A model generated the notes under the pieces. That model made no database searches. It was not told the origin of the DNA and worked only from the letters and a program-made list of their open reading frames with translations. A program made the position numbers and the translations under genes. Positions 24,526-29,475 of a stretch of 64,000 nt of DNA are shown piece by piece. Positions within the stretch are counted from its first letter, which is position 1; each line of letters begins with the position of its first letter. Source of the stretch: Caryophanales bacterium (GTDB taxonomy: Bacteria > Bacillota > Bacilli > CAJFEE01). Location of the stretch: NCBI GenBank assembly GCA_029256085.1, contig JAQSYP010000002.1, positions 124,001-188,000 on the forward strand, read 5' to 3'.

Positions 24526-25737
24526 TCAAGTAATTGCTTTTCTAGTAATTACTAATTTGGTAAATATTATACTAAATATTATAGCACTAATAAAACACGT
24601 TAAAAAATATAGAATATTAGCATGAACAAGTAAAATCATTAAACTACTAAGTGTACCAAATACAAATAATTGCATTGTAAAAAAATTACCTATACTCTTT
24701 GTCTTCTCCGCATCTTTCCCTGGTAGTATTGTCCACCATACATTATTAGATAAACTACCTAAAATTGGTAGAAGCTGTATTCCATATGCATATAAAAAAG
24801 CAATAAAAAACACGATTACAAACATATTCAATTCCATCATATAAAAAGTTATTAACAACACAATCTGTAATCTAAAGAACAGTCCAAAATAATCACCCGA
24901 TCTTGCCCATGTTCTCCATAAAATAAAATAAATTCTATTGTTAGTATTAAAATTTATTTTAGGAAGTACAACGTCTAAGTATTTTCTTCTATTAAGTTGC
25001 CCACCAATAATGGGAACATCGGTAACTAAATTAGCAATTTTATAAATACGATATGAATAGACTTCATCTTTATCAATCCAATAAAGCCAGCTAAATGTCT
25101 TATTTGAAACATACTTATTAAGTATAAAAATACTAATAGATAACATCAATGCTATTGAAAATGCAAATAAATTATTATTAGTTAAGAGTAGATAAAAAAT
25201 TATAAAAGTTACAACCATTTGGGTAAATGTTAGCGCAATGTTAGAAAGTTTATGTAATAAATAAGGTCTAACCCAACTAATATATAAATTCCATACCTTC
25301 ATTAAGATAATTATAAATATATATATAAACAAATTGTCTTTGATATTAGAATCATATTTATTTAGTAATGGCAAAGTGGGTAGTATGAATAATACTGTTG
25401 TAAACATTTGAATTCCAAAACTAACTAATAAACATTTTCTAAAGTAATTACTTAATCGGTACTCACTAGGTGTTAAATAAATTATATCTGCTTTGTTAAG
25501 AAACGTCATAATTGGTGATGGAATAATAACTAACATCCAAATAATAGATGTTACAATTATCCACGGGAAGTTTTCTGATGAGTTTTTCAACCATTCTTGA
25601 TAATAGTAACCTCCCCCACCAATCAATATTAGTAATACAATTATTAAATGATCGCTAAAAATATATCTTAAGTATTTCATGTAACTATTTATCCTACTTA
25701 AAAAGCGTTTTTCCCACATTGTATTAATATCTATCAT
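24526..25737 (-). CDS. ecsB: ABC transporter permease EcsB
   Basis: A 403-residue integral membrane protein with about ten hydrophobic segments. It matches EcsB by its N-terminal pattern (WEKRFLSRINSYMKYLRYIF) and PSPIMTFLNKADIIYLTPSE. With EcsA it forms an exporter that affects secretion, competence, sporulation and intramembrane proteolysis by RasP in B. subtilis. Its start overlaps the ecsA stop by 4 bases. No ecsC gene follows, unlike in B. subtilis. Confidence 0.9.
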   Translation of the reverse strand: MIDINTMWEKRFLSRINSYMKYLRYIFSDHLIIVLLILIGGGGYYYQEWLKNSSENFPWIIVTSIIWMLVIIPSPIMTFLNKADIIYLTPSEYRLSNYFRKCLLVSFGIQMFTTVLFILPTLPLLNKYDSNIKDNLFIYIFIIILMKVWNLYISWVRPYLLHKLSNIALTFTQMVVTFIIFYLLLTNNNLFAFSIALMLSISIFILNKYVSNKTFSWLYWIDKDEVYSYRIYKIANLVTDVPIIGGQLNRRKYLDVVLPKINFNTNNRIYFILWRTWARSGDYFGLFFRLQIVLLITFYMMELNMFVIVFFIAFLYAYGIQLLPILGSLSNNVWWTILPGKDAEKTKSIGNFFTMQLFVFGTLSSLMILLVHANILYFLTCFISAIIFSIIFTKLVITRKAIT

Positions 25738-26474
25738 TCAATTTCATCCTTTGTAATAGCTAAATAAATTTCATCTAAAGAAGAAGCAGCCATACCAGCT
25801 TTCTCTCTAATTTCTTTAAGAGTCCCCATCATCTTAATTCTGCCATTGTGTAAAATTATAAAGCGATCACAATATTTCTCTGCAGTTGCAAGAATATGAG
25901 TAGACATAAAGATTGTTGATCCATCTTCTCTAGCCTTATTAAGTAATTCCAATAACGAGTGGATACCTAATGGATCTAAACCTAAGAATGGTTCATCAAT
26001 AATATACAACGGCGGATTTACTAAAAAGGCACTCATAATCATAACTTTTTGTTTCATACCTTTAGAAAAATGAACCGGAAACCAATCTTTTCTTTTTTCC
26101 ATTTTAAATTCTTTAAGTAACCATGAAACTCTTTCATTGAAAGTTTTCTCGTCAATACCGTAAGACATAGCAATAAATTGAAGATGTTCGACTAAAGTCA
26201 ATTCCTCATATAGAATTGGCATTTCTGGTATGTATGCGAAATTTTTTCTGTAGTTTTCAATATTCTCTTCAATCTTATTACCTAAAATGGAAATTGAACC
26301 TTTCTGAGGTTCCATTAACCCAATTAGGTGTTTTATAATTGTGCTCTTTCCTGCACCATTAAGACCAATTAAACCGATAATTTCACCTTTCTGAAGTTCA
26401 AAATTTATGTCATGTATCACAGGCTTTTTCGAGTATCCTCCAAACAAGCCATCTACTTTTAAAACTGAATTCAT
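25734..26474 (-). CDS. ecsA: ABC transporter ATP-binding protein EcsA
   Basis: A 246-residue ATPase. Walker A GLNGAGKSTI is at about 37-46. The signature is HFSKGMKQKVMIM, a normal EcsA variant of LSGGQ. Walker B is LYIIDEPFLGLD and the switch is STHIL. It partners EcsB. TTAGGAGATCG precedes the ATG. Upstream, on the plus strand, is the candidate RNA at 26562. Confidence 0.94.
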   Translation of the reverse strand: MNSVLKVDGLFGGYSKKPVIHDINFELQKGEIIGLIGLNGAGKSTIIKHLIGLMEPQKGSISILGNKIEENIENYRKNFAYIPEMPILYEELTLVEHLQFIAMSYGIDEKTFNERVSWLLKEFKMEKRKDWFPVHFSKGMKQKVMIMSAFLVNPPLYIIDEPFLGLDPLGIHSLLELLNKAREDGSTIFMSTHILATAEKYCDRFIILHNGRIKMMGTLKEIREKAGMAASSLDEIYLAITKDEIE

Positions 26475-26561
26475 AAGCGATCTCCTAACATTTTCAATAT
26501 TTTATATAAAAATAATATAATTTATAAATACTTTTCGCAAAGTATGGAAACCATAATTATT

Positions 26562-26931
26562 GTAGAGAGAGAGTTAAAGCTTTTTCAATATTAACTTCCT
26601 CAAGTTAAACTTATTCTTGTTCAAGATTTCGGGGGTGTCAGTCGGACACAATTTACTTTAAGTAAAAACCGATTAACCTACGAGATGAGGTGTTTCCAAA
26701 AGGCTTTGAAAAACATGGTCGCTAACAATTACTTGCGAACATCTTATGCTTTGCATAATATTCTTAGCGAAGGTAGCTCTAAATGAACAAGGTTGCATAG
26801 TATTGTGTAAAACTCTCATAAATGAGGTGTTGATCGCAGATAATATTGCTATTTAAATTTTGTTAAACTTTTTCCATCTCTCTACTTTGGAGCAGGACGC
26901 AACCCGCAAGCGTTCTGCTCTTTTTATTTCC
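26562..26931 (+). ncRNA. Candidate structured RNA of about 370 nt, unidentified
   Basis: The end is a strong terminator: AGCAGGACGC, short loop, GCGTTCTGCT, TTTTT (26891-26924). The first bases GTAGAGAGA (26562-26570) pair with TCTCTCTAC (26876-26884) just before it, closing the molecule. CATAAT at 26552 could be the -10 element; the -35 is weak. Inside are hairpins TTAACTT-CCTC-AAGTTAA (26591-26608), GTGTC-AGTCG-GACAC (26635-26649), TTTACTT-T-AAGTAAA (26653-26667) and TTATGC-TTT-GCATAA (about 26744-26758). It does not resemble 6S, SRP, tmRNA or RNase P RNA as I know them. Confidence 0.5.
26890..26931 (+). terminator. Strong intrinsic terminator before hit
   Basis: AGCAGGACGC and GCGTTCTGCT pair over 10 bases with one G-U around a short AACCCGCAA-containing loop, followed by five T. 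No protein gene on the plus strand precedes it, which points to an RNA gene upstream. Confidence 0.85.
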
Positions 26932-27030
26932 CAAATATTTTTTCAATTTAATTGAATTGAATGATATTTTAGGTAATAATAAAAATAAATGTAAAAAATT
27001 TCCTAAACGAGAAGATACGGGGGTATTTTT

Positions 27031-27459
27031 ATGGGACATGACAATTGTATTTTTTGTAAAATAGTTTCTGGTGAAATCCCGGCACATAAAGTGTATGAAG
27101 ATGATCACACTTTGGCATTCCTAGACATTAGTCAAGTAACAAATGGTCATACATTAGTAATTCCTAAAAGTCATAAAGAAAATATTTATGAATTAGACGA
27201 TGTTACAGCAAAAAATTTGTTTGCAGTAGTTCCTAAAGTATCTAATTCTATTTTAAACGTATTTAATCCTGTTGGATTAAATTTAATTAATAATAATGGT
27301 GAGGAAGCAGGGCAATCTGTATTTCATTTTCATCTACATATTATACCAAGATATGGTAAGGGTGATGGATTTGGTGTTGTTTGGAAGACGCACGAAATGA
27401 AATACACTCAAGATGACCTATCGAGCATTGCAATTAAAATAAGACAAAATATTGAATAA
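27031..27459 (+). CDS. hit: HIT family nucleotide-binding protein Hit
   Basis: A 142-residue histidine-triad protein, likely a nucleoside phosphoramidate or dinucleotide hydrolase. The triad HFHLHII has His99, His101 and His103. The zinc-type pair Cys6-x2-Cys9 is near the N-terminus, and NGHTLVIPK follows near residue 39. GGGGG precedes the ATG. It is divergent from ecsAB, as in B. subtilis, and followed closely by yhaH. Confidence 0.94.
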   Translation: MGHDNCIFCKIVSGEIPAHKVYEDDHTLAFLDISQVTNGHTLVIPKSHKENIYELDDVTAKNLFAVVPKVSNSILNVFNPVGLNLINNNGEEAGQSVFHFHLHIIPRYGKGDGFGVVWKTHEMKYTQDDLSSIAIKIRQNIE

Positions 27460-28508: not shown

Positions 28509-28838
28509 TTATCTGCAGTACTTCTGGAATTCTTTCATTAAATTTATGTAGATTTTGCTAATTAATAATGTATTAATTAATTCTCTAATATCACAAGAAG
28601 AAGGTAATTGGTTTTTGAATTCTTGAAAAAGACTTTCGAACCACATTAGACCTTCTTCTTTTTGTTTTGTCATTATTTCATCTAATTGTTCACATGTGGA
28701 CATCAATTTATCGACTTCTTGCTTTGAAAGTTTTTTTCTTATTATGTAAGATTCGAAAGGGTTTTTTTCTTGGTCAATTATCGTTAGCATTAATTCTAAA
28801 TGATACTCTAATAATTCTAATTTTTTATGTAATCCCAT
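28509..28838 (-). CDS. yhaI: DUF1878 family protein YhaI
   Basis: A 109-residue helical protein that starts with GLHKKLELLEYHLELMLTIID and contains FESYIIRKKLSKQEVDKL. The family's function is unknown. It is convergent with scoC, with 8 bases between the stops, and has no clear terminator between them. GGGGGAAAG precedes the ATG. Position next to scoC supports the name. Confidence 0.8.
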   Translation of the reverse strand: MGLHKKLELLEYHLELMLTIIDQEKNPFESYIIRKKLSKQEVDKLMSTCEQLDEIMTKQKEEGLMWFESLFQEFKNQLPSSCDIRELINTLLISKIYINLMKEFQKYCR

Positions 28839-29235: not shown

Positions 29236-29319
29236 TTATAACCAGCTAGCACCGATGATTATTAAAAGAATAAATAACACTACTAATAATGCGAAACCAT
29301 TTCCACCATAGTTTGTCAT
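29236..29319 (-). CDS. YjcZ/SscA family sporulation mini-protein 1 (27 aa)
   Basis: MTNYGGNGFALLVVLFILL leads into a hydrophobic helix that ends IIIGASWL. This is the YjcZ/SscA pattern: a short polar Gly/Asn head and one membrane helix. AGGAGGG lies eight bases before the ATG at 29319; an ATG at 29325 is too close to that site. SscA helps spore-coat assembly in B. subtilis, where it also lies near prsA. Two more copies follow. Confidence 0.85.
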   Translation of the reverse strand: MTNYGGNGFALLVVLFILLIIIGASWL

Positions 29320-29388
29320 GGTCATGCCCTCCTATTTAATAAATTTTTATTAATATTCATAATAATGGTAATGCTTATATATAAGGTA

Positions 29389-29475
29389 TTAGCAGATTGC
29401 AGCACCAACTATTATTAATAAGATGAACAATACAACGATTAATGCGAACCCATTGTTGTGGTTTACGTGAGTCAT
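29389..29475 (-). CDS. YjcZ/SscA family sporulation mini-protein 2 (28 aa)
   Basis: Begins MTHVNHNNGFALIVVLF and ends in a hydrophobic helix, IIVGAAIC. GGGGAGGTG precedes the ATG. A sequence CATAATATA upstream fits a sigma-K -10 element, but no good -35 partner was found. It ends in Cys like copy 3. Confidence 0.83.
   Translation of the reverse strand: MTHVNHNNGFALIVVLFILLIIVGAAIC

Follow-up and report, generated by a model that had tools for sequence, protein, structure and literature searches.

A free-standing small RNA gene between ecsA and hit in a Caryophanales bacterium, very probably a divergent relative of the Bacillus RNAs Bvs196 and S357

The spacer between hinT (hit) and ecsA is known to hold a small RNA in two species of Bacillus. 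In Bacillus velezensis, PMC9147052 describes Bvs196, a 294-nt sRNA of this spacer that is forespore-specific and controlled by sigmaF/sigmaG, mainly by sigmaG. According to PMC9147052, spores of a Bvs196 deletion withstand heat and UV less well and formaldehyde better, the RNA binds spo0A and sspN-tlp mRNA in vitro (Kd 3.57 uM for spo0A), and its conservation in 253 Bacillus genomes was found by BLASTn with Bvs196. In Bacillus subtilis, S357 and ncr1670 are one RNA (PMC4410918), a listed sRNA of 256 nt in the hinT-ecsA spacer (PMC3574147 and PMC4410918), which is 2.77-fold enriched with B. subtilis Hfq (PMC3574147 and PMC4410918) and is reported to be affected by hfq inactivation (PMC4410918). 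PMC9147052 introduces the B. subtilis homologue as S357 but discusses it under the name S547, the latter looking like a slip. Repeated modules are not described in the portion of the literature on Bvs196, S357/ncr1670 and ecsA that our search covered, which lay mostly outside subscription papers.

We analyzed a 64,000-nt stretch of DNA, hereafter the window, from a Caryophanales bacterium with a genome of 2.6 Mb in 17 contigs. The ecsA-hit spacer of the window (26475-27030) contains a real, free-standing sRNA gene of about 360 nt, which extends from 26562 to about 26926 on the strand of hit. A preliminary description made from the sequence had proposed an RNA here; the candidate is real, but its author was unaware of the sRNA already described from this spacer (Bvs196/S357/ncr1670). 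The minus-strand neighbours of the RNA are EcsB and EcsA, the latter with about 60-65% identity to EcsA of Bacillaceae, and the plus-strand neighbours are HIT, a YtxH-like protein and a MarR-family protein at the place where Hpr/ScoC would sit. A DUF1878 protein (28509-28838, minus strand) adjoins the MarR-family (Hpr/ScoC-like) gene, and two tandem YjcZ_2 (PF09680) small peptides of 28-29 aa are encoded at 29236-29325 and 29389-29475 (minus strand). The host encodes SpoIVA and a SigG that scores over the cut-off, as well as another strong match, which fits SigF; given sigG, a sigF-like gene and spoIVA, the host should form endospores. No 16S or 23S rRNA genes were found in its assembly (G000), where they were probably lost as repeats.

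Table 1. Features of the ecsA-hit region of the window (positions are those of the 64,000-nt stretch)
Feature	Position	Strand	Description
ecsA	25734..26474	-	divergent neighbour; ABC transporter ATPase, Pfam PF00005
-35-like AAATA	26526..26530	+	aligned, one base off, with GHATA of relatives
-10 region GGAAACCATAAT	26546..26557	+	GGACATCATAAT in relatives; degenerate putative sigmaF/sigmaG-type promoter
Closing helix, 5' strand GTAGAGAGA	26562..26570	+	perfect complement of TCTCTCTAC
Possible degenerate A-like module (CGGGGGTGTCAGTCGGACAC)	26628..26652	+	weak, A-matrix score 0.2-1.1 bits
Module A, copy 1 (AGATGAGGTGTTTCCAAAAGGC)	26683..26707	+	23.0 bits, second-best site in the window
Module A, copy 2 (AAATGAGGTGTTGATCGCAGAT)	26820..26844	+	31.2 bits, best site in the window
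Closing helix, 3' strand TCTCTCTAC	26877..26885	+	perfect complement of GTAGAGAGA
Intrinsic terminator	26889..26926	+	12-bp stem GGAGCAGGACGC / GCGTTCTGCTCT, 9-nt loop, T-rich tract
hit/hinT	27031..27459	+	downstream neighbour; Pfam PF01230

The 9-bp closing helix encloses a body of 325 nt and stands directly before the intrinsic terminator, whose stem begins three bases after it. In 1000 dinucleotide shuffles of the body, the terminal 20 nt on either side share 9 consecutive Watson-Crick pairs with P = 0.001. Both elements had been read from the sequence before, and both readings hold: no credible ORF lies in front of the terminator, which has the stem and T-rich tract listed in Table 1, and the first nine bases pair perfectly just before it, closing the molecule. 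The terminator went unseen by our pattern scan because the scan accepts only loops of 3-8 nt. The predicted fold has -100.7 kcal/mol with the terminator (z -4.6 versus shuffles) and z -3.6 without it, and the opposite strand folds less well (z -2.7). Perfect hairpins, defined by a stem of at least 5 and a loop of 3-8 and compared with 1000 dinucleotide shuffles of the body, number 5 versus 2.3 expected (P = 0.06); taken alone, this count is weak evidence for an RNA. Folding predictions mostly bury the cores of the modules described below.

Upstream of the RNA, 44 of 58 distinct relatives carry GHATA at a distance of exactly 19 nt from the GG of GGACATCATAAT, after which the RNA begins with purine-rich sequence. 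The promoter of the relatives thus has the form GHATA-N14-GGACATCATAAT, which we take to be of the sigmaF/sigmaG type, in line with the results from reporters and mutants for Bvs196 in B. velezensis. In the window, the -10 suggested in the preliminary description corresponds to CATAAT at 26552-26557. With a matrix of the relatives' promoters, the window site ranks third among about 128,000 positions and scores only 1.6 bits, the 5% quantile of the relatives being 19. Judged by this score it would be a poor sigmaG promoter, and since the score is so far below those of the relatives, the timing of expression in the host is uncertain.

A BLASTN search with the spacer against 61 genomes matched only the spacer itself, the sequence being too diverged, so relatives were gathered by synteny. 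A search with EcsA returned 80 named loci, which together with the window and the genome G001 yielded 79 ecsA-hit spacers. Of these, 70 measure 400 nt or more; the comparison covers about 70 species. Two recurrent modules were recognized. Module A has the consensus AAAUGRGGUGUYURYYRMAGRY (every position being left out of its own selection when counted), in which G2, G4, G5, U6 and G7 are nearly exceptionless. Module B has the consensus AGGRGAUGRUYNNNWUGNACAA. Of the 70 long spacers, 69 contain module A, which spans more than 20 genera and has two to seven copies, usually three; the A copies are usually mixed with module B, which is mostly present zero to two times per spacer. The total per spacer ranges from 2 to 9 modules at a median spacing of about 63 nt, the common orders being ABABA, AAA and AABA and the longest AAABAAABA. 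Across the ecsA-hit spacers, module A lies 230 times on the RNA strand and never on the opposite one. B. sonorensis and B. paralicheniformis (L041 and L072), two species included in PMC9147052, have three A modules each, and the window two.

Modules are missing from the short spacers (115-167 nt) of Alkalibacillus, Piscibacillus, Salimicrobium, Listeria ilorinensis, B. badius and B. wudalianchiensis. They are likewise missing from the 316-nt spacer of G001, which belongs to the same family as the host and is the nearest and only relative compared from its order; the RNA is absent there. The G001 spacer matches that of Candidatus Harrysmithimonas galli (L036) in length and sequence.

When both strands of the 64 kb were scanned with a module A matrix built without the window, the third-best site reached 5.2 bits, compared with 31.2 and 23.0 bits for the two copies in the RNA. 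A model of 63 A modules gave the two copies E = 4.6e-5 and 0.0036 in the window, and the same copies are the best two sites of the whole 2.6-Mb genome (E 0.0019 and 0.15). The stretch CGGGGGTGTCAGTCGGACAC resembles GGGGTGTCAGTTAAAGAC of Peribacillus, and 26628 may hold a third, degenerate A copy. No module B is visible in the window RNA. Among 349 genomes of the class, a strict A pattern had 17 matches in 12 genomes, versus 2 for the reversed control, and all 17 sit between ecsA and hit. The A model has matches in 30 of 399 genomes; matches with several modules are mostly at ecsA-hit, the remainder being at other loci, or single and possibly due to chance.

The closing helix recurs in relatives with other sequences. 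In most species the 5' end is rich in purines and pairs with pyrimidine-rich sequence immediately preceding the terminator, and the sequences differ: GTAGAGAGA/TCTCTCTAC, GAAGGGGAA/TTCCCCTTC, GAGGAAGCGATG/CATTGCTTCCTC and GAAGAAGGGGTTC/GAACCCCTTTTTC are among the pairs. The helix thus changes in step on both sides. Cognate ends scored 20.7 versus 16.3 for swapped ends (z 6.9), with none of 5000 permutations as high, a result that is no strict probability because the species are related. The 5' segments were placed from the -10 and not by complementarity, a rule that misplaced several of them. No 3' end of another species pairs better with the 5' end of the window RNA than its own.

Inner structure is less constant. 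RNAalifold on 31 ABABA-type sequences returned only the closing helix, the terminator and weak inner pairs, and a hairpin within module A (UGUYU/AGACA) is compatible in 79% of cells, its covariation not exceeding that of shuffles. Since inner folds are poorly conserved and the A hairpin lacks covariation, the modules are conserved as sequence and not as helices; by this comparison the most conserved parts of the family are linear modules rather than the hairpins stressed in the preliminary description. The earlier count of at least four perfect hairpins stands, five being present. The proposal of a structured RNA gene itself survived alignment of the relatives' spacers and the test for covariation: the RNA looks independently transcribed, and its closing helix and modules are conserved in relatives. 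Because modules, place and closing helix agree, we assign the window RNA to this family.

RNAs of the same anatomy also occur elsewhere. Neobacillus drentensis has a second, paralogous RNA, of order A-B-A, outside ecsA-hit (L123:2100-2430), with modules of 35.8, 38.4 and 30.5 bits. In B. badius and B. wudalianchiensis the RNA is absent at ecsA-hit and instead lies between a response-regulator region and genes for cytochrome oxidase, in a short B-A version (L124:1980-2180 and L125). The frame after B in these two species, about 19 codons long, stops at the UGA of the next A. In Evansella clarkii such an RNA adjoins an apparent selA. Read by eye, promoter-like boxes and terminators are visible at the other loci, as is a closing helix in N. 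drentensis, B. badius and B. wudalianchiensis, Evansella having a 5' hairpin instead. As the same anatomy is found at other loci, the RNA is an independent gene rather than a hit leader or an element bound to ecsA.

Neither the window nor 20 loci from relatives gave an Rfam match at the gathering score, and a permissive search gave chance matches only, e.g. a plastid intron model with 25 bits against a cut-off of 140. At the gathering threshold this excludes 6S, SRP, tmRNA and RNase P RNA, none of which had been recognized in the preliminary description either. Two coding readings were rejected. Translation from module A (AUG AGG UGU...) meets UGA at once in the second window copy. For a small-peptide mRNA read through module B, frame 0 is no longer than other frames, and the window has no B; moreover, unlike in coding sequence, the second codon of module B varies at its first base and not at its third.

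The best overall explanation, which we hold to be reasonably probable, is a divergent spore sRNA acting as a multi-site binding RNA. It would be expressed in the host itself and, to judge from the relatives, transcribed from a promoter of the sigmaF/sigmaG type while the spore develops. The closing helix beside the terminator would hold its ends together, and the RNA would present repeated near-invariant modules, of which two are clear here and as many as nine (A and B together) occur in other species. Each module would bind one same conserved partner, which the RNA would titrate or gather (scaffold) in the forespore. We infer multi-site binding because a fixed one-strand sequence varies in copy number inside a covarying closing helix, and we give this mechanism an even chance. 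Points against the explanation are the poor promoter of the window, the lack of the RNA in G001, the predicted folds that mostly bury the module cores, and the base-pairing with mRNAs that is proposed for Bvs196. Candidate partners are Hfq, the anti-Shine-Dalgarno of the 30S subunit (16S tail) and another protein.

It could also be that the RNA is a trans-acting antisense sRNA whose variable loops pair with the spo0A and sspN-tlp mRNAs, the modules being merely structural. The published binding in vitro (Kd 3.57 uM for spo0A) and the altered spore resistance on deletion, as given in PMC9147052, argue for such pairing. However, it is the repeated module and not the variable loops that is most conserved over more than 20 genera, micromolar affinity is weak, and the A hairpin lacks the covariation expected of a purely structural element; we therefore consider antisense action rather unlikely. 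That the whole locus is an untranscribed spacer with fortuitous hairpins, as the hairpin P of 0.06 might suggest, has a negligible probability in our judgment, given that modules, closing helix, terminator and place coincide.

Two further alternatives concern the identity of the partner. The modules could mimic a Shine-Dalgarno sequence, binding the 3' end of 16S rRNA so as to hold or load forespore 30S subunits. Both A (AAA-u-GRGGUG) and B (AGGRG-a-UGRUY) pair with GGAUCACCUCCUUU, each with one fixed mismatch; all 76 of the 76 distinct B sites have UUG or AUG at position +14, 8 nt on and so ideally spaced; and the duplexes are energetically better than about 96% of those from letter shuffles. 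Other places in the rRNA pair as well or better, though, so that the anti-Shine-Dalgarno is not singled out (pairing was tested on Neobacillus rRNA, the host assembly being without rRNA genes). Together with the length of the frames after B, which do not exceed other frames, the first-base variation of the codon after its start, and a module consensus that is never a perfect Shine-Dalgarno, this makes mimicry improbable. Hfq prefers simple purine repeats, and the module is a fixed 22-nt sequence, which speaks against an Hfq-binding sponge or an Hfq-dependent sRNA. The 2.77-fold enrichment of ncr1670 with B. subtilis Hfq and the reported effect of hfq inactivation on ncr1670/S357 favour such a role; this enrichment is, however, among the lower ones listed, and we rate Hfq as a shade less probable still than ribosome binding by mimicry. 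A broader idea, namely that a widespread Bacillales forespore RNA with 2-9 near-identical modules, Shine-Dalgarno-like but for one fixed mismatch and in some cases with a start codon at ideal distance behind them, lures away or parks 30S ribosomes, or else a dedicated RNA-binding protein, during the onset of dormancy, seems to us unlikely.

With multi-site binding by a spore sRNA as the preferred reading, what is new here is the architecture of 22-nt modules and a distribution far broader than that published; the kind of RNA and its place were already known. An sRNA of the Bacillus subtilis group thereby becomes a Bacillales family absent from Rfam, with A/B module repeats, a closing helix and, in relatives, a sigmaF/sigmaG promoter as its signature. 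That a fixed 22-nt module recurs, with two to seven A copies, across more than 20 genera suggests that its forespore partner is conserved.

Among works-alike systems, titrating RNAs of the CsrB/RsmZ type carry many copies of a short motif per sRNA, and the comparison extends to the mode of action only. They are not members of the family: its A modules lack the GGA core needed by CsrA, and hosts and structures differ. A CsrA-titrating RNA was rejected on the same ground, the consensus AUGRGGUG having no GGA and the hairpin no covariation. CsfG, an sRNA of endospore formers, shares forespore expression under sigmaF/sigmaG (as cited in PMC9147052) and is set apart by its different locus. S357/ncr1670 lies in the same spacer as the window RNA; it has 256 nt and a modest association with Hfq, and the excerpts at hand report no module or function for it. 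Bvs196 and the window RNA have in common the hinT/hit-ecsA spacer, a 3' terminator, a spore-forming host and, in relatives, the sigmaF/sigmaG-type promoter. They differ in that the window RNA is longer (about 360 versus 294 nt), has a degenerate promoter and is not found by an ordinary DNA search. Repeated modules are not described in the accessible part of PMC9147052. On this evidence, the window RNA is very probably a divergent orthologue of ncr1670/S357 of B. subtilis and of Bvs196 of B. velezensis, its homology to Bvs196 resting on place, promoter type and the relatives in B. sonorensis and B. paralicheniformis.
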